Source: Nitrospinota bacterium
Lineage (GTDB): Bacteria > Tectomicrobia > Entotheonellia > J063
Direction: 5' to 3'
Assembly (NCBI GenBank): GCA_003696125.1
Contig: RFHZ01000427.1
Coordinates: 1-8,018, forward strand
Length of the DNA: 8,018 nt
Each line of letters begins with the position of its first letter. Position 1 is the first letter of the stretch. The notes under the pieces are model-generated. The model had not been told where the DNA came from and ran no database searches. It saw nothing but the letters and a program-made list of their open reading frames with translations. The position numbers and the translations under genes are program-made. Below are positions 1,256-8,018 of this stretch, in pieces.

Positions 1256-3670
1256 TCAGGGCAGGGACTGTACCGCTTCCCTGATCTCCTCAGGAGAGAG
1301 TGCCTGGTCCGGAAGCCGGGTGTGCACGGTAACCCGGAGTGCCTTCAGTCCCTGAATACCCTGCAGGTCCTCCAGATCGACCTCTTCTACACTCTCTGTT
1401 ATGTACCCGAGTGACTGCAGGTACTCGATATATTCCCGGTACTCCAGCGCTTCTTTGCTTTGCGAGTAGACGATGGCGATCTTCCCTGGCTGCGTCAACC
1501 GCTCCGCCCTGCCCCGGATCCTGGCCTTATCGATCCGCTTCTTCATGATCTCGTACCGGATATTGTAGGTGCCATCCACATCGAACCGCTTCTCGTCAAA
1601 GCGGAAGCGGATGGAGAGGGGGGTATCCTGCACCAGGATCAGGTGAGCGGTTTCTAACGGGACCTTGAGTTGTCCTTTTAGCTGTTCCGTTTTGCTGGCG
1701 ATCTCGCACATGACCAGGAGTTGCCAGAGGCGAATGTTCCGCAGGTAGAGGCGATCGAACTTCCCATCCGGTACCAGGGAGCCCCCGATATAGATGCCAT
1801 ACTCGACCCCATCACTCTTGTGCTTTTCGAAGTAGTGGGGAAACATGGCCTGCGCCTTCTCCTCTGCCCTTTCCAGGTGGGTGGCAATGGTCTCGTTGAT
1901 CAGGGTCACACTCTCCTCAAAATCCTTGCGCCGGCGATAGAGAGTGCCTCGTTCTGGATCTAAGACGTGACGATACGCGTCGATCTGCGCCTGTACATCC
2001 GCTCCAAATTCCTGGAGATGAGGGAAAAGCGGCTCCACATCACGCCGTAAGAAGTCGAGAGTAGCCAGCTCATCTCCGGAACTCAGCCCGGACTCGATCT
2101 GGGTGATATGCTTGTCGATCCGGTAGATCAGCTCATCCAGAAAGGGGAGGGGACGGTGGGTACGGGCCAGCCGGATGATGGCGCGGGCAAGTTTTAGATG
2201 CTCGACCAGGTCCCCTTGAATCGCCGCATTGCGCTGGGTCGAGGACCCGCGGATATCGGAGACACCGTAAAGCGGGTAGACCTCATCAAAGACGATCGGC
2301 TCCATCTCCCCGCCCCGACCAGCCTTTTGCCGGGCGAGGAAGTTGAGGGCAGCCTGTTGGAAGCGCCATTCGACCACCGGATGAATGGCGGTGCACTGCT
2401 CTTTGATGATGGCCTGTACCCGGGTGTTGAGTTCCTCTATGCTCCGCTTGATGGCCATGGAGAAGAGGGGAAGCACCTCCTGCAGCTTGAGCACATTGAT
2501 CGCGTTTAGCTCTCCCGGATGGGGGGAGCCGAGCTCCAGCATGCCGATCAGCTCGTCCTGGTAGTACAGGGGAGCGACCACCATGTTCCGGATCCCCTGC
2601 CGGAGGATCTCCTCTTCGATAGAGGAGCGGTGAGCATAGGTGGCCAGATCCTCGATGACCAGGGGTTTCCCTTGCCGTACCGCCTGCTCGTACACCGACC
2701 CGTGGAAATCGGAAAACCGGTAGTGGGCGGAATCGGCGAAGATACAGCTCTGCTCGATGTGGCATCCGTAGTTGAGGAGAAAGACCTGATCCCCCTGGAT
2801 GGCGGCCAGTCCCAAGACCAGGTGCGGCTGGCGCAGGAGGGTACGTAGCAGGGTCTGGAGCTGGGCAAACCTGGCCGCAGAGAGCACCGATTCCCGCTCG
2901 ATCAGGTCACGCTTGAGCGAGGAGAGGACCTCCTGATCCGTCACATCGACGGCGGTGACCACGGTAAAGCCGTAAAAGGTGAAGTGCTCTGGGGGGATAA
3001 GCTCCATCCAGACGTGGAGATCGGTGACGTTGGCCAGCAGGCGTTTCTTCTCTGCCTCCCCTAACCGGGGAAGGGGTCCGGTCAGCTTCAATTCCAGGAA
3101 TTGCGGATCAAAAGAGATTTTAAAGTGCCGATCCAGGCCGGTAGCCGGATCTTTGGTGGTAAAGATGAGCGGGTAATCGAACTGCAGATCGATGTCATAG
3201 AATTTCCTGCCGATATAGAGATAGGCACGCAGCAACCGTCCCCAGGATAAGGCCTCCTTATCGAGATTGGCCTGCGCGGCCAGTGTCCCGTCTGCCGCCA
3301 GGAAAAGGCGCTGGAAACAGGGAGTGGCATAGAAACTGCGCAGTTGGAAAGGGAGGAGGGCGGCCGAGTACTCCCGTTCCCAGCGGGCCGGGGGGAAGAC
3401 GAGGGTCATGAGAACATCGATCAGTTCGCGGTGTTTCTCGATAAGAGAGAGGTCGGTAATCGGTTCCAGCAGGGCCGGTGTCTTTTCCAGTTCGGCCTGA
3501 ATCTGCGCGAAGAGGAGTGCCTTTGCCTGCTGCTTTCCTTCCACCACCCGCTCCCAGCGGGCAAACAAGGGAGCCAGGCTGAGATGGCAGGGAAAAGGAA
3601 ACTCCCGGATAGCCTGAGGAGAAACGGCAACTGCTTGGTTGATGGAAAGGTCTTGCTGCTGGTCAGACAT
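1256..3670 (-). CDS. Large GAF-domain protein of unknown function
   Basis: 804 residues from the ATG at 3670, preceded by GGGAGAAGGACAG. The frame stays open upstream to 4231, but that stretch crosses the intergenic promoters and runs antisense into the pentapeptide gene, and it is low-complexity translation, so the internal start is preferred. Seen: an N-terminal mostly helical region (1-250) that resembles no enzyme I know; a GAF-type domain at about 262-410 (IEDLATYAHRSS, NMVVAPLYYQDELIGMLEL); then a long region with the conserved-looking blocks VYPLYGVSDIRGSSTQRN (465-481), GIYIGGSLVPDGKFD (625-639), NIRYEIMKKRIDKARI (703-718) and RLTQPGKIAIVYS (724-736). No signal peptide, membrane helix, kinase, GGDEF or HD motif is visible, so it is likely cytoplasmic. 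From memory, proteins of about 780-800 residues with these blocks occur as uncharacterised GAF proteins in Bacteroidota and others. GAF domains bind small ligands or cofactors, so a sensor or scaffold is possible. It precedes the radical SAM gene in the same direction. Confidence 0.88.
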   Translation of the reverse strand: MSDQQQDLSINQAVAVSPQAIREFPFPCHLSLAPLFARWERVVEGKQQAKALLFAQIQAELEKTPALLEPITDLSLIEKHRELIDVLMTLVFPPARWEREYSAALLPFQLRSFYATPCFQRLFLAADGTLAAQANLDKEALSWGRLLRAYLYIGRKFYDIDLQFDYPLIFTTKDPATGLDRHFKISFDPQFLELKLTGPLPRLGEAEKKRLLANVTDLHVWMELIPPEHFTFYGFTVVTAVDVTDQEVLSSLKRDLIERESVLSAARFAQLQTLLRTLLRQPHLVLGLAAIQGDQVFLLNYGCHIEQSCIFADSAHYRFSDFHGSVYEQAVRQGKPLVIEDLATYAHRSSIEEEILRQGIRNMVVAPLYYQDELIGMLELGSPHPGELNAINVLKLQEVLPLFSMAIKRSIEELNTRVQAIIKEQCTAIHPVVEWRFQQAALNFLARQKAGRGGEMEPIVFDEVYPLYGVSDIRGSSTQRNAAIQGDLVEHLKLARAIIRLARTHRPLPFLDELIYRIDKHITQIESGLSSGDELATLDFLRRDVEPLFPHLQEFGADVQAQIDAYRHVLDPERGTLYRRRKDFEESVTLINETIATHLERAEEKAQAMFPHYFEKHKSDGVEYGIYIGGSLVPDGKFDRLYLRNIRLWQLLVMCEIASKTEQLKGQLKVPLETAHLILVQDTPLSIRFRFDEKRFDVDGTYNIRYEIMKKRIDKARIRGRAERLTQPGKIAIVYSQSKEALEYREYIEYLQSLGYITESVEEVDLEDLQGIQGLKALRVTVHTRLPDQALSPEEIREAVQSLP

Positions 3671-3751
3671 CTGTCCTTCTCCCTGGGAGCACGGAGAGTG
3701 GAGCAGGGTTCCGTCTCTCCGTTCAAGGGATAAAATCCATGGTTTTCCCGT

Positions 3752-3780
3752 ATTGTACCAGGGAAGGACAGCCAGTGCAA
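3752..3780 (-). promoter_or_regulatory. Candidate sigma-70 promoter for the GAF/radical SAM unit
   Basis: Reading the minus strand, TTGCAC (3780-3775) is separated by 17 bases from TACAAT (3757-3752). The -10 matches consensus at 5 of 6 positions, the -35 only at 3 of 6. Transcription would start near 3745, giving a leader of about 75 bases before the ATG at 3670. The placement is sensible, but the weak -35 makes this tentative. Confidence 0.4.
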
Positions 3781-3821
3781 GCAGAGGCCGATTCGGATCT
3801 TGAACAACAGGGTTTTTTCTG

Positions 3822-3850
3822 TTGACTCCTTCTGGCTCCTCCGCCATAAT
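3822..3850 (+). promoter_or_regulatory. Candidate sigma-70 promoter for the pentapeptide gene
   Basis: TTGACT (3822-3827), a 17-base spacer and CATAAT (3845-3850). Both hexamers match consensus at 5 of 6 positions and the spacing is optimal. Transcription would start near 3857, leaving a leader of about 135 bases that contains the palindrome at 3892-3904. It lies about 40 bases from the opposing candidate promoter, so the two could interfere or share a regulator. Confidence 0.6.
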
Positions 3851-3891
3851 GCCGGTACCTTTTCGATGACTTTCCCACAGTCGGTCTCTAT

Positions 3892-3904
3892 TGGGAAGTT
3901 CCCA
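3892..3904. repeat. 13-base perfect palindrome (TGGGAA-G-TTCCCA)
   Basis: Six-base arms with a one-base centre, roughly 35-47 bases downstream of the expected start of the pentapeptide transcript. It shares the core GnGAAnTTCnC with the palindrome at 5007-5019. A repressor-type operator in the early transcribed region is possible. Chance is also possible, because a 6-1-6 palindrome is expected about once per 4 kb. Confidence 0.4.
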
Positions 3905-3991
3905 TGGATACAAGAAGTACCTGATCCGCGGCCTGGCCGGAGCGGTAAAAGGGTAACACCTTTCTGGCGGGAGCAAAGAGGAGAAGAGCAG

Positions 3992-4951
3992 ATGAGCAGT
4001 GAGCAACGGAAGACGCTTCCCCCTGAGGCGATGGATAATGCAGAAGCGGTAATCAAGGCCCTGCACCGGCAGGGAGAATCCCTCAGCAGGTATGACCTCT
4101 CCCTGCTCCATCTGGAGAAACTCCACTGGGAACGGGCTCCCCTCCAGCGCTGCCGCCTGGTGGGAGTCTATCTGGAGGAGGCAGAGCTGGTGGAGGCTGA
4201 CCTGGAAGGGGCCGTGCTTGCCCGGGCCCATCTCGAGGGAGTCGTTTTCAGGGGAGCCAGATTGTGTGGGGCTGACCTGAGCGGTGCCTGTCTACAGGGG
4301 GCCGACCTGTCCCGGGCAGACCTCCGGGGGGCATGCCTGCGTGCTGCCCGTTTAGAAGGGGCTTCTCTGGCCGGTGCCATCCTGGACGAGGCCGATCTCC
4401 GCGAAGCGGATCTGAGCCGGGCCGATCTGCGGGAGGGTTCCCTGAGAGAGACCCTGGCCGAAGGGGCGTGCTTCAAGGAAGCCCTCCTCGATCGTGCCAC
4501 CCTGCACTGGGCCATCTTGGGGCGTGCCTCCCTGCAGCGCGCCTCCCTCAAAGAGGCGGATCTGCACAGGGCCAATCTGGTGGGGGCTGATCTACAGGGT
4601 GCAGACCTCTCGCAGGCTTCCCTGCTGCGTACCCGACCCGGGTCGGCTAATTTTCGGGGTGCTCTCCTCATCGGTACAGACTGTACCCTCTCTATCCTGC
4701 GTCAGGTCAACCTGCGGGAGGCTACCCTGGAGCAGGTAAATCTCTCTAACGCCACCCTGGACCGGGCCAACCTGCGGGGAGCAGTTCTCCGACGACTCCT
4801 CTTCCGCCGGACCAACCTGGTCAATGCCGATCTGCGTGGAGCAACCGTCGAGATAGAGGGGATCGACTTCGGGGAGACGAACTGGTGGAATGCTTATTGG
4901 GATGATGCCATCCGCTCCCAGCTTGAAGCCCGCTTCCCCCGTCCAGAATAA
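3992..4951 (+). CDS. Pentapeptide-repeat protein
   Basis: 319 residues. The ATG at 3992 has AGGAG at 3979-3983, eight bases upstream. An in-frame TTG at 3800 lies upstream of the promoter and is rejected. Seen: after a short helical N-terminus (1-35), a leucine or another mostly hydrophobic residue recurs every fifth position from L36 to V286, with A(D/N)Lxx units such as GADLSGACLQGADLSRADLR. That is about 51 consecutive pentapeptides, the only central-position misfits being A156 and P216. Such repeats fold as a right-handed four-sided beta helix, so about 13 coils are expected. The C-terminus (FGETNWWNAYWDDAIRSQL) is a helical cap seen in other family members. There is no signal peptide or membrane segment. 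A hand count of residues 36-290 gives about 36 acidic and 34 basic residues, so it is not strongly acidic like the gyrase-binding DNA mimics MfpA and Qnr. Function is unknown; a protein-binding scaffold is the neutral guess. Confidence 0.92.
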   Translation: MSSEQRKTLPPEAMDNAEAVIKALHRQGESLSRYDLSLLHLEKLHWERAPLQRCRLVGVYLEEAELVEADLEGAVLARAHLEGVVFRGARLCGADLSGACLQGADLSRADLRGACLRAARLEGASLAGAILDEADLREADLSRADLREGSLRETLAEGACFKEALLDRATLHWAILGRASLQRASLKEADLHRANLVGADLQGADLSQASLLRTRPGSANFRGALLIGTDCTLSILRQVNLREATLEQVNLSNATLDRANLRGAVLRRLLFRRTNLVNADLRGATVEIEGIDFGETNWWNAYWDDAIRSQLEARFPRPE

Positions 4952-4995
4952 CTTGACGATGTTCCATTTGCATTTTAGCGCAGAGCACGCTGAGG

Positions 4996-5019
4996 CCGCA
5001 GTCTGCGGTGAATTTCACC
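4996..5019. repeat. Two tandem 6-1-6 palindromes before the hydrolase gene
   Basis: CCGCAG-T-CTGCGG (4996-5008) and GGTGAA-T-TTCACC (5007-5019) are both perfect and share two bases. Their centres, 5002 and 5013, are 11 bases apart, about one DNA turn, so two protein dimers could bind the same face. In RNA the two would form alternative hairpins because they compete for the shared GG. The ribosome site AGGAGG follows at 5035-5040. They could therefore be an operator or a translational switch; neither is proven. Confidence 0.5.
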
Positions 5020-5045
5020 TTGTCGAGGTAAGAGAGGAGGGATCG

Positions 5046-5660
5046 ATGCTGATCAAGCGCTTTGTCTTTGATAATCACCCCCATGGGGCCAACAGCTATC
5101 TCGTCGCCTGTGAAGAGACCGGGGAGGCGGCCCTGTTCGATATCGGGGAGGTGGCAGAAGAACTCCCCTCCTTTCTCCAGGAACACCACCTGACCTTAAA
5201 GTATCTCGTGCTTACCCACACCCATACCGATCATGTCGGTGGACTCCCCTGGCTGGTCGAGCGGTTTCAGGTTCCGGTCTACTGGAATCCCAAAGAGGCT
5301 CCCATCCTGCAGAGGACCGCCGAGCGGCGTCAATGGGACTGCGATCCTCTCTCCCTCCTGACCCATGTCGTTTTAGACGGTACCACCCTTTCCCTGGGCA
5401 CCTATACCTTCACCGCCTATGAGATTGCGGGTCATACCCCGGGAGGGACCGCCTTTTGTACCGATCAGGTCGCCCTGGTAGGGGATATCCTCTTTGCCGG
5501 GGCGGTAGGAGGAACCCCCACCCCGGAAGCCTATGCCAGGCAGATCCAGGGGATCAAGAGCAAGCTCCTTCCCCTGGGGGATCATGTCCGCGTGTACAGC
5601 GGACACGGTCCGGTCACCACCCTCGGTATCGAGCGACTCTTTAACCCGTTTCTCACCTGA
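5046..5660 (+). CDS. MBL-fold metallo-hydrolase, glyoxalase II-like
   Basis: 204 residues, the usual size for small YcbL/GloB-type hydrolases. Seen: the metal-binding motif HTHTDH (H58, H60, D62, H63), then GHTPGG with H130, GD with D147, and SGHGP with H187. This is the complete set of ligands for a two-metal site. The N-terminus (NSYLVACEETGEAALFDIG) is the standard opening strand pair. These enzymes hydrolyse thioesters such as hydroxyacylglutathione, or related esters, in the cytoplasm. The C-terminal glutathione-binding domain of classical glyoxalase II is absent, so the substrate is unknown. The ATG at 5046 has AGGAGG five bases upstream and begins where homologous folds begin. An earlier ATG at 4890 would overlap the pentapeptide gene by 62 bases and add unrelated sequence. 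It lies 94 bases after the pentapeptide gene and is probably transcribed with it, subject to the palindromes in between. Confidence 0.93.
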   Translation: MLIKRFVFDNHPHGANSYLVACEETGEAALFDIGEVAEELPSFLQEHHLTLKYLVLTHTHTDHVGGLPWLVERFQVPVYWNPKEAPILQRTAERRQWDCDPLSLLTHVVLDGTTLSLGTYTFTAYEIAGHTPGGTAFCTDQVALVGDILFAGAVGGTPTPEAYARQIQGIKSKLLPLGDHVRVYSGHGPVTTLGIERLFNPFLT

Positions 5661-5935: not shown

Positions 5936-7906
5936 ATGGCTGGCAGGTGGGGATTGGTCCTTTGCAATTGTCGCCAACACGAGTCCCTTGCCCCCCTGCG
6001 ACTCGCGCTGTCCATGCCGTGTGTGCAGATTTCCGCCCATCCAGAGCCTGATCTGGACACCCTGACCCGTTTTGTCCAGCAGGAGGAGTTAGATCACCTC
6101 TTGATCAGTTGTTGTCAAGACCCGGGGGTCTTCTCGCAGTCCCTGGCTTCTGCCCTTTCTCCTCCCCCTCTCCTCCACTTCCTCGATCTGAATAGCCGGT
6201 GCTTCTGGGTACATCCAGATCCTGTCCAGGCCCAGGCCAAGGCGATTCGCCTGGTACGGGGGGCCATGCAGGCGGCCGAAGCCCAGGAGGAGCCGGCCTA
6301 TAATCCATTAAGCGCCGGGAAACGCATCGTGATCGGAGCCGAGACCCCACAGGGTTTAGTCCTGGCCGCTCGCCTGCATCAGGTGGCCCAACCCCTTTTG
6401 CTCCTGGCCCCGCGTGTTTCCCTGGCCGGGGGAGATGGAGACAAGGAGGAACTCCCCTATACCCTGGTACGGGGACAGATAGTGGCGGTCAGGGGTCGGC
6501 TGGGGGATTTCCGGGTCACCATCGAAGAGCGATATGCAGACACAACGCGTCGCCAGGACCTCCCGGCGGCTCAGGTGGTCATCCTCCTCCAGACCGTTGC
6601 CCCGCCGATCAAAAAGCGGACCGGCTGCCATGTGCTGGTCGATCCCGGCGAGGCGGATCTGGAGAGAGTCGTTCAGGAGGTTCAACAGCTCATCGGCCAC
6701 TTCCTCAAACCGGTGCATGTCACCTATCAGGAGACGATATGCGCGGGAGGGGCGGCAGATCAGGAGGCGTGTGGACGCTGTATCCCGGCCTGCCCGTACG
6801 ATGCGATCAGCCGTGATCCCCGTAACCATCTCCGTATACGGGTGGATCAGATGACCTGTGAGGGGTGTGGAGCCTGTACCGCTGCCTGCCCCACCTCGGC
6901 GCTCCGTTTCACCGATCCCTCTCCTCGCCAGCTTTACTCCCGGCTTGCCGCCTTCCTCTCCCCTTCCAACGGTGACGGAGAAGAACGGCCGGTCGTTCTC
7001 TTTCACTGCGGTGAGGAGGGGTACCGGGCCCTGGAGACGGCGGCACAGCAGTCGATCCCCTATCCGGCCAACGTCTTCCCGATCGAAGTCCCCTGTCTGC
7101 GTTTCGTTTCCCAGGCTTATGTCCTGGCCGCCTTCCGCCTGGGGGCGGCCGGGGTCGGTTTCCTGGGTTGCGAGAGCTGCCAGCATGGGGAGCGAGAGCT
7201 CTTCTACCAGCAGTACGATTTCTGTCGCTTGATCCTGGAGGCCTTTGCCCTGGGGACGGAGCGGCTACGACTCATCACGACCGAGCAGGGGAGGGAAAGG
7301 GAAGCGATTGCTACCTTGACCCGCTTTGCCGAAACCGTGGCTCCCAGTCCCCTTTCCCGGGATGGACACCCGATGGGGGTGGTGGATCACCGGGAGGTTA
7401 TCCGGGAGGCGATAGCCGTCTTTATCGAGCAGTTGGGACAAGAGCCGGGACGCCGCACCTTTACCGCACCCCATCCCTTTGCCCTGGCCGAGGTCGATGC
7501 TCCTGGCTGCACGCTGTGTCGTTCCTGTGTCAATGTCTGTCCTGTGCACGCCTTCCGTTTTGCAGAGGAGAGCTTTTCCCTCCAGCTCCAACCCATCGCC
7601 TGTGTGGCGTGTGGACTGTGTGAGACGGCGTGCCCGGAACGGGTCATCACCCTGCGCCATGAGATCTATCTGGAGCGTGATGCCCTGGAGTATCAGGTCG
7701 TGGCCCAGGACGAGATGATCCCCTGTACCAGGTGTGGGAAACCTTTTATCAATAAGAGAGCGCTCGAAGCAGTGGAGGCCAGGCTCCTCTCCCTGGACTC
7801 CCTGCTCGATGCCTTTCAGGGGAAACGACGCCATCTCCTCCGCATGTGTCCAGACTGCCGGGCGGTTGCCGCCATGTTCGAGGTGCAGAGGGGCTGGGAG
7901 CCGTAA
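5936..7906 (+). CDS. Multi-cluster 4Fe-4S protein with MvhD/FlpD-like core, formate-dehydrogenase-associated type
   Basis: 656 residues. The ATG at 5936 has AGGAGG six bases upstream. Order of parts: an N-terminal region (1-120) with LCNC (C10, C12) and CC (C59, C60); a region starting IVIGAETPQG (131-140) that resembles a worn-down nucleotide-binding fold; ferredoxin module 1 (C269, C279, C282, C286P; then C308, C311, C314, C318P); an MvhD/FlpD-like segment (352-440) with C358, C387, C412 and C415; ferredoxin module 2 (C525, C528, C531, C535P; C556, C559, C562, C566P); and a C-terminal CTRCGKPF (C597, C600) with CPDC (C638, C641). Up to four [4Fe-4S] clusters are expected. There is no signal peptide, so it is cytoplasmic. 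From memory, this layout, including the displaced first cysteine of module 1 and the CxxCGKPF end, is found in proteins encoded beside formate dehydrogenase, TorD, DUF3305 and DUF3306 genes in proteobacteria. An electron-transfer or molybdoenzyme-assembly role is inferred. Confidence 0.88.
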   Translation: MAGRWGLVLCNCRQHESLAPLRLALSMPCVQISAHPEPDLDTLTRFVQQEELDHLLISCCQDPGVFSQSLASALSPPPLLHFLDLNSRCFWVHPDPVQAQAKAIRLVRGAMQAAEAQEEPAYNPLSAGKRIVIGAETPQGLVLAARLHQVAQPLLLLAPRVSLAGGDGDKEELPYTLVRGQIVAVRGRLGDFRVTIEERYADTTRRQDLPAAQVVILLQTVAPPIKKRTGCHVLVDPGEADLERVVQEVQQLIGHFLKPVHVTYQETICAGGAADQEACGRCIPACPYDAISRDPRNHLRIRVDQMTCEGCGACTAACPTSALRFTDPSPRQLYSRLAAFLSPSNGDGEERPVVLFHCGEEGYRALETAAQQSIPYPANVFPIEVPCLRFVSQAYVLAAFRLGAAGVGFLGCESCQHGERELFYQQYDFCRLILEAFALGTERLRLITTEQGREREAIATLTRFAETVAPSPLSRDGHPMGVVDHREVIREAIAVFIEQLGQEPGRRTFTAPHPFALAEVDAPGCTLCRSCVNVCPVHAFRFAEESFSLQLQPIACVACGLCETACPERVITLRHEIYLERDALEYQVVAQDEMIPCTRCGKPFINKRALEAVEARLLSLDSLLDAFQGKRRHLLRMCPDCRAVAAMFEVQRGWEP

Positions 7907-7933: not shown

Positions 7934-8018
7934 ATGCGAGAAAAGGGACGCAGAGGGAAGAAAGATGGGCGGCGGAAAGGAAAGGAGTTTATGGATGCCG
8001 CGCTCGATGCCTATATCC
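7934..8018 (+). CDS. Start of an unidentified downstream gene (partial)
   Basis: A frame open to the right edge begins just after the iron-sulfur gene. Three in-frame ATGs are possible: 7913 (six bases after the stop), 7934 (GAGGGAA upstream) and 7991 (GGAAAGGAG upstream but only three bases away). The stretch before 7991 would encode a very basic, low-complexity peptide, mostly R, K and G, so 7991 (MDAALDAYI...) may be the true start and the purine-rich stretch just leader. Only nine residues follow, too few to assign a family. In related clusters a TorD-like chaperone or formate dehydrogenase gene sits here; that is expectation, not observation. Confidence 0.35.
   Translation, partial: MREKGRRGKKDGRRKGKEFMDAALDAYI

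Follow-up and report, generated by a model that had tools for sequence, protein, structure and literature searches.

The window, the whole stretch of DNA that was analysed, comprises the 8,018 nucleotides of contig RFHZ01000427.1 from the Nitrospinota bacterium assembly GCA_003696125.1. On the minus strand, positions 3-1211 encode a Radical SAM/SPASM protein like the NirJ2/AhbD heme-synthesis enzymes, with a C-terminal piece resembling PCP_red (PF08369), both matches being below their cut-offs. Positions 1256-4231, also on the minus strand, encode a large protein in which GAF was the only domain recognised; translation probably begins downstream of the first codon of the longest frame. On the plus strand, a gene for a pentapeptide-repeat protein (3800-4951) is followed by one for a metallo-beta-lactamase-fold hydrolase (4890-5660), and no link to formate dehydrogenase was seen for either. 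The last complete gene of the window, preceded immediately on its 5' side by AGGAGG, which resembles a ribosome-binding site, encodes the iron-sulfur protein that is the subject of this analysis (Table 1). Annotation of its family goes no further than '4Fe-4S binding protein' or 'hydrogenase iron-sulfur subunit'.

Table 1. Features of the iron-sulfur protein gene and of the open reading frame that follows it
Feature	Position in window	Strand	Basis or remark
HdrA/MvhD/HycF-like mosaic iron-sulfur protein, CDS	5936..7906	+	656 aa, ATG start
HdrA N-terminal domain, residues 1-120	5936..6295	+	hhalign; C10, C12, C59 conserved
Remnant HdrA thioredoxin-reductase-like part, FAD subdomain only, residues 121-258	6296..6709	+	VIA-align
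First 2x[4Fe-4S] ferredoxin module, residues 269-330	6740..6925	+	Pfam Fer4 families
FlpD/MvhD domain, residues 353-468	6992..7339	+	PF02662, 61.1 bits
C358, predicted [2Fe-2S] ligand	7007..7009	+	MvhD alignment, family and FlpD conservation
C387, predicted [2Fe-2S] ligand	7094..7096	+	MvhD alignment, family and FlpD conservation
C412, predicted [2Fe-2S] ligand	7169..7171	+	MvhD alignment, family and FlpD conservation
C415, predicted [2Fe-2S] ligand	7178..7180	+	MvhD alignment, family and FlpD conservation
HycF-like module, residues 515-651	7478..7888	+	second 2x[4Fe-4S] ferredoxin and metal quartet
Small conserved ORF, start (KGKEFMDAALDAY...)	7934..8018	+	tblastn; cut by contig end

The AlphaFold2 model of the protein had a mean pLDDT of 90.5 and a pTM of 0.90. 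Sequence and structure comparison gave the domain order HdrA N-terminal domain, remnant FAD subdomain, 2x[4Fe-4S] ferredoxin module, FlpD/MvhD domain and HycF-like 2x[4Fe-4S] module with a CxxC...CPxC quartet. Since the matches to HdrA, MvhD and HycF lie along one protein of 656 residues, it is read as a mosaic in which a HycF-like module is joined to an HdrA-MvhD core; the source systems of both parts handle formate dehydrogenase. The cysteines of the first ferredoxin module are C269, C279, C282 and C286 and C308, C311, C314 and C318, of which seven are invariant in all 93 family members and C311 is present in 83.

The family profile aligned with HdrA-MvhD over residues 4-465 (against 26-724, E 2e-32, hhalign), and residues 1-125 alone matched HdrA with a probability of 96% (E 2e-9), compared with at most 0.4% in shuffled-column controls. 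Residues 2-342 of the model were superimposed on HdrA with Z-scores of 12.5-13.1 (VIA-align), and Foldseek agreed for both HdrA and MvhD. The remnant FAD subdomain (residues 123-258 of the model) fitted that of HdrA (7bke_A) with a Z-score of 12.5 and a deviation of 2.6 Å over 132 residues; its sequence match alone was weak (E 0.01). Flavin binding by residues 128-258 is doubtful because the glycine motif is degenerate and reads GAETPQG. The VIA-align matches for this stretch were filled by thioredoxin-reductase folds, which were read as the remnant FAD subdomain and not taken as a sign of flavin binding. The protein scored 124.5 bits against a cut-off of 1100 for full HdrA identity, and the FAD-subdomain match was limited to residues 128-258. 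Residues 1-470 are thus a reduced HdrA-MvhD fusion, with a degenerate FAD subdomain as all that is left of the flavoprotein part.

The FlpD/MvhD domain matched positions 1-119 of the 123 in the PF02662 (FlpD) profile with an E-value of 1.4e-16 and 61.1 bits, the gathering cut-off being 22.3. The same domain scored 65.1 bits in a whole-genome search with PF02662, which found no second FlpD domain in the source genome. Residues 349-479 of the model were superimposed on MvhD (5odh_D) with a Z-score of 14.8 and a deviation of 2.5 Å over 131 of 137 residues (VIA-align), and the segment gave a TM-score of 0.84 and an rmsd of 1.7 Å against 8rvu_F (Foldseek). Residues 356-420 contain LFHCGEEGYRALE, VPCLRF and GCESCQHGE, with cysteines exactly at positions 358, 387, 412 and 415. 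When the PDB was searched with phmmer, six MvhD-type sequences matched and all four cysteines fell on MvhD cysteines. The MvhD/FlpD-like order of cysteines described in the initial annotation, and the match to PF02662 that it implied, were thus borne out.

The columns of C358, C387 and C412 were cysteine in all of a comparison set of 41 other FlpD domains, drawn from diverse genomes, and each of the 41 had a further cysteine 2-7 residues after the C412 column. The fifth canonical FlpD cysteine, the second of a CxxC, was present in 32 of the 41 domains and is missing from the 656-residue protein. The C-x2-C spacing of C412 and C415 is rare (1 of 41), C-x4-C being usual, and the loop that carries these two residues is the lowest-confidence part of the domain (pLDDT of 65 for the block 411-420). 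A [2Fe-2S] cluster is present in MvhD and in the homologous ElpC (PMC12350162). Because the four cysteines are conserved throughout FlpD domains, we infer that C358, C387, C412 and C415 are [2Fe-2S] ligands. The segment is a true FlpD/MvhD domain with the four FlpD-invariant cysteines, so that the extra cluster proposed from the first reading of the DNA, of the [2Fe-2S] type, is likely to be present in the protein, and the predicted site is very probably functional.

Three genomes of the same class (G001-G003) encode proteins 52-57% identical to the 656-residue protein. A single-sequence scan of genome contigs returned no relatives; a scan with an alignment, run over the genomes of bacteria and archaea, did detect them and gave the best 80 loci. 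These loci belonged to SAR324 (44%), Methanophagales, Methanocellales, another euryarchaeote (Ods02) and many Pseudomonadota. Full-length homologues were also present in plasmid records of Alphaproteobacteria (about 28% identity) and haloarchaea (about 26%), and the homology to Pseudomonadota members covered 97% at 28% identity.

Twelve of the 93 members kept the four cysteines, with 12, 12, 12 and 10 cysteines at positions 358, 387, 412 and 415, respectively, and serine in place of C415 in two Methanophagales members. None of the 81 Pseudomonadota homologues had a cysteine at any of the four positions. As the positions were either retained (12 rows) or all missing (0 of 81), the cysteines appear to be kept or lost as a set, beyond chance, and not to vary freely among homologues. 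Alignment error is argued against by the C-terminal quartet, invariant in 93 of 93, and by the ferredoxin cysteines, which are nearly so. PF02662 made no call on three Cys-less proteins examined, and the fold was therefore examined by profile-profile alignment, in which the Cys-less FlpD segment alone matched FlpD profiles with an hhalign probability of 93%, while 20 shuffled-column controls gave at most 0.7%. The suggestion that proteobacterial relatives from formate-dehydrogenase clusters keep this fold and have lost the cysteines was therefore correct.

That the Pseudomonadota members work without the four cysteines, that the C-x2-C spacing at C412 and C415 is unusual and that serine can stand at 415 in Methanophagales might mean that the cysteines are a relic, persisting by descent or binding zinc in a domain that is only a scaffold. 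Relics without a function would be expected to disappear singly, however, whereas three of the cysteines are present in every one of the 12 deeply diverged rows and the fourth in 10 of them, archaea at about 26-28% identity among these rows, and their positions equal the FlpD-invariant set, so that a relic is distinctly unlikely and a cluster site remains the preferred reading.

Trees were calculated from residues 1-480 with the four cysteine columns removed and were rooted on eight HdrA-MvhD proteins. The Cys-less proteins formed one clade (support 100/100), for which a single loss suffices; the cysteines were lost in one event, on the Pseudomonadota stem. The 656-residue protein, G001-G003 and SAR324 formed another clade (100/100); of the Cys-keeping members these are nearest to the Cys-less clade, to which they are sister (97/92). 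A single clade of all Cys-keeping members was rejected by the AU test (p-AU 0.016), a result that fits an ancestral state that was retained rather than a derived clade. The Cys-keeping state of the 656-residue protein is thus ancestral, and the 'intermediate form' of the initial annotation is right in the phylogenetic sense.

The descent of residues 1-470 from an HdrA-MvhD fusion raised the possibility that the protein is part of a working, bifurcating Hdr-type complex with HdrBC-like partners, and genomes of Methanophagales members do have HdrB over the cut-off. The best HdrB match in the source genome, however, scored 44.7 bits against a cut-off of 345, the range over the class relatives, the source genome included, was 44.7-55.7 bits, and HdrB was also below the cut-off in SAR324, Ods02 and the Pseudomonadota examined. 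There was no other HdrA in the source genome, where matches to the HdrA2 model were the gene for the 656-residue protein itself and generic ferredoxin or Rossmann pieces, and no hdrBC gene was found in any neighbourhood read. In addition, most of the flavoprotein part of HdrA is deleted and the glycine motif of what is left is degenerate. Since HdrB was not found and the source genome has no other HdrA or FlpD, a working Hdr complex with the 656-residue protein is unlikely; participation in a bifurcating complex is highly improbable and, in the source genome, largely refuted. The proposed link to Hdr therefore stands as ancestry and falls as a working connection.

The C-terminal part proved to be HycF-like, which goes beyond what had been noticed before. 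Residues 515-648 of the model were superimposed on HycF (7z0t_F) with a Z-score of 10.3 and a deviation of 2.2 Å over 130 of 136 residues (VIA-align), and the module matched PRK12387 with 58 bits. The metal quartet C597-x2-C600-x37-C638-P-D-C641 is invariant in 93 of 93 members. In formate hydrogenlyase, the HycF quartet, CxxC-x34-CPxC, was found to be an unexpected single-metal site near the FdhF interface (PMC9474812). The metal bound by the quartet of the 656-residue protein could be zinc.

The family gene is fixedly associated with formate-dehydrogenase genes. FdhA, FdhB, FdhD, TorD, DUF3305 or DUF3306 markers were found at 91 of 93 loci in a search reaching about 9 kb where the contig allowed, the two marker-free loci being on contigs of 8.8 and 12 kb. 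A TorD-like gene was present in 84 and FdhA in 81 of the 93 loci, and Mrp/ApbC Fe-S carriers were encoded nearby in 38. In G001-G003, the family gene is followed directly by FdhD, then by a small conserved ORF and, where the locus is intact, by TorD and FdhA; in G002 there is a transposase-like ORF downstream of the family gene and FdhA lies elsewhere. The order in SAR324 (L045) is FdhA, FdhB, an NrfD-like and a cytochrome-like ORF, the family gene, a small ORF, TorD, a MoeA-like ORF, ABC-transporter-like ORFs and FdhD, where FdhB is FDH3_beta over the cut-off and the MoeA-like and ABC-transporter-like ORFs were identified by eye only. In the archaea (Methanophagales and Methanocellales; L046, L114), the family gene ends on or beside the TorD start.

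No formate-dehydrogenase gene is present on the contig of the window, which stops 112 bases past the stop codon. The small ORF that begins there comes directly after the family gene, at the place where G001-G003 have FdhD. Its tblastn matches (L034, L035, L148/L033, L045) are located between the family gene or FdhD and the TorD/FdhA genes, and the ORF was found only in formate-dehydrogenase clusters of the window's class and of SAR324. The source genome has its own FdhA, with a Tat motif, on another contig (C875), which shares no end overlap that would join it to the contig of the window. There was no FdhD match in this fragmented genome (990 contigs), though FdhA is present.

Not all of the neighbours are formate dehydrogenases. 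Cys-keeping members in Natronorubrum, Ods02 and a divergent paralogue of G003 adjoin PhsA-like Tat molybdoenzymes instead (L036 7797-9941, in G003 C2; L037; L058), so that the clients of the family may be wider than formate dehydrogenase.

A twin-arginine motif was found in 81 of the 83 catalytic subunits near the family gene. No Tat signal was seen in 76 of 80 rows of the family protein, nor in the 656-residue protein itself. With the enzyme Tat-bearing and the 656-residue protein not, the family protein is expected to be cytoplasmic and the mature enzyme outside. The Hdr-type electron transfer put forward in the initial annotation is at odds with this arrangement, the enzyme in relatives being exported across the membrane from the family protein.

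Several observations favor a role before export, 1) the opposite locations of the two proteins, 2) the adjacent TorD and FdhD genes and 3) the Mrp/ApbC carriers in 38 loci. NapF offers a precedent: in Rhodobacter this protein, cytoplasmic and with four clusters, binds NapA and is required for the Fe-S assembly of NapA (PMC10609526). By analogy, and with moderate confidence, we favor the view that the family protein serves Tat-exported formate dehydrogenases of the FDH3 type as an accessory that resides in the cytoplasm, carries several iron-sulfur clusters and has a redox or maturation role before export. It would dock in the cytoplasm on the apo or precursor catalytic subunit by means of modules that are at home in formate-dehydrogenase complexes elsewhere (MvhD-FdhAB, HycF-FdhF). 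The cluster at C358, C387, C412 and C415 would be electronically joined to the flanking [4Fe-4S] modules, and electrons or Fe-S clusters might be handed over during maturation and proofreading, together with TorD and FdhD and before export, in a NapF-NapA-like manner. Within this relay, the [2Fe-2S] site would be the ancestral element; Pseudomonadota could do without it and would keep the fold only as a scaffold.

The main rival of a maturation role is that the family protein is a catalytic electron-transfer subunit through which formate electrons pass to a soluble acceptor, as with MvhD. Methanogen MvhD joins FdhAB or MvhAG to HdrA (PMC12350162, PMC6085437), and clusters in all of the modules would make a relay. 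Such a subunit would, however, lie on the other face of the membrane from catalytic subunits that bear Tat motifs in 81 of 83 cases, the loci encode their own FdhB and membrane subunit, so that the acceptor side is taken, and the source genome lacks HdrB and any other FlpD domain. A catalytic electron-acceptor role is accordingly considered unlikely.

In E. coli, FdhE is needed only for the exported formate dehydrogenases (PMC10609526). It was missing from 20 of the 22 genomes searched; of the 21 genomes with a family member, 19 lacked it and two, both Shewanella, had it. The distribution of FdhE is narrow, and its absence is therefore consistent with replacement by the family protein but is no proof of it. 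Searches of the open-licence literature found no paper describing the family, nor genetic or biochemical work on its members; its sole trace there is SO_4506 of Shewanella oneidensis, an 'iron-sulfur cluster-binding protein' beside FdhT whose transcript level changed in a RyhB study (PMC5826389) and whose membership is suggested by its description and position. More tentatively, an Hdr-type core may have lost its flavin chemistry and gained a HycF-like module to become, in archaea and bacteria, a cytoplasmic factor dedicated to the redox maturation of Tat-exported formate dehydrogenases and of certain PhsA-like molybdoenzymes, replacing FdhE, with the [2Fe-2S] relay discarded once in Pseudomonadota.

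In many bacteria and archaea, a gene of this widespread family stands beside those of exported formate dehydrogenases, and the family touches on the question of how these enzymes are loaded and checked without FdhE. The mosaic ties parts of methanogen bifurcation, formate hydrogenlyase and respiratory formate dehydrogenases into one family, and the occurrence of the family in two natural states, one with the [2Fe-2S] cysteines and one lacking them, makes the contribution of the extra cluster directly testable.

Among known systems, HdrA2, the MvhD-fused type Ia HdrA, agrees in the succession of its parts, from the HdrA N-terminal domain through the Rossmann/FAD subdomain and the ferredoxin module to the MvhD domain. 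About 450 of its residues, however, map to residues 121-260 of the 656-residue protein, which lacks most of the flavoprotein part, has a degenerate glycine motif and carries a HycF-like module in addition; HdrBC is not encoded with it. MvhD, VhuD and FlpD (PF02662) share with this protein the fold (Z 14.8) and the four cysteines kept throughout FlpD domains; here the domain is fused inside a larger protein, the second cysteine of the CxxC is missing, C-x2-C replaces the usual C-x4-C, and Mvh hydrogenase or Hdr was not found. HycF/HyfH of formate hydrogenlyase aligns end to end with residues 515-651 and has the two [4Fe-4S] clusters and the quartet in common, with a spacing of CxxC-x34-CPxC compared with CxxC-x37-CPDC, but in the 656-residue protein the module is C-terminal on an HdrA-MvhD core, and the family is encoded beside a Tat-exported formate dehydrogenase, not in a hydrogenlyase. 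NapF likewise serves a molybdoenzyme exported by Tat, as a poly-[4Fe-4S] accessory in the cytoplasm (PMC10609526), a functional analogy only, as the domain architecture beyond the ferredoxin motifs is not common to the two. The '4Fe-4S binding protein' of Pseudomonadota FDH3 clusters, of the Shewanella SO_4506 type, is a full-length orthologous family with a gene neighbourhood like that in the class relatives and SAR324, distinguished from the 656-residue protein by having none of the four FlpD cysteines in any of 81 members.
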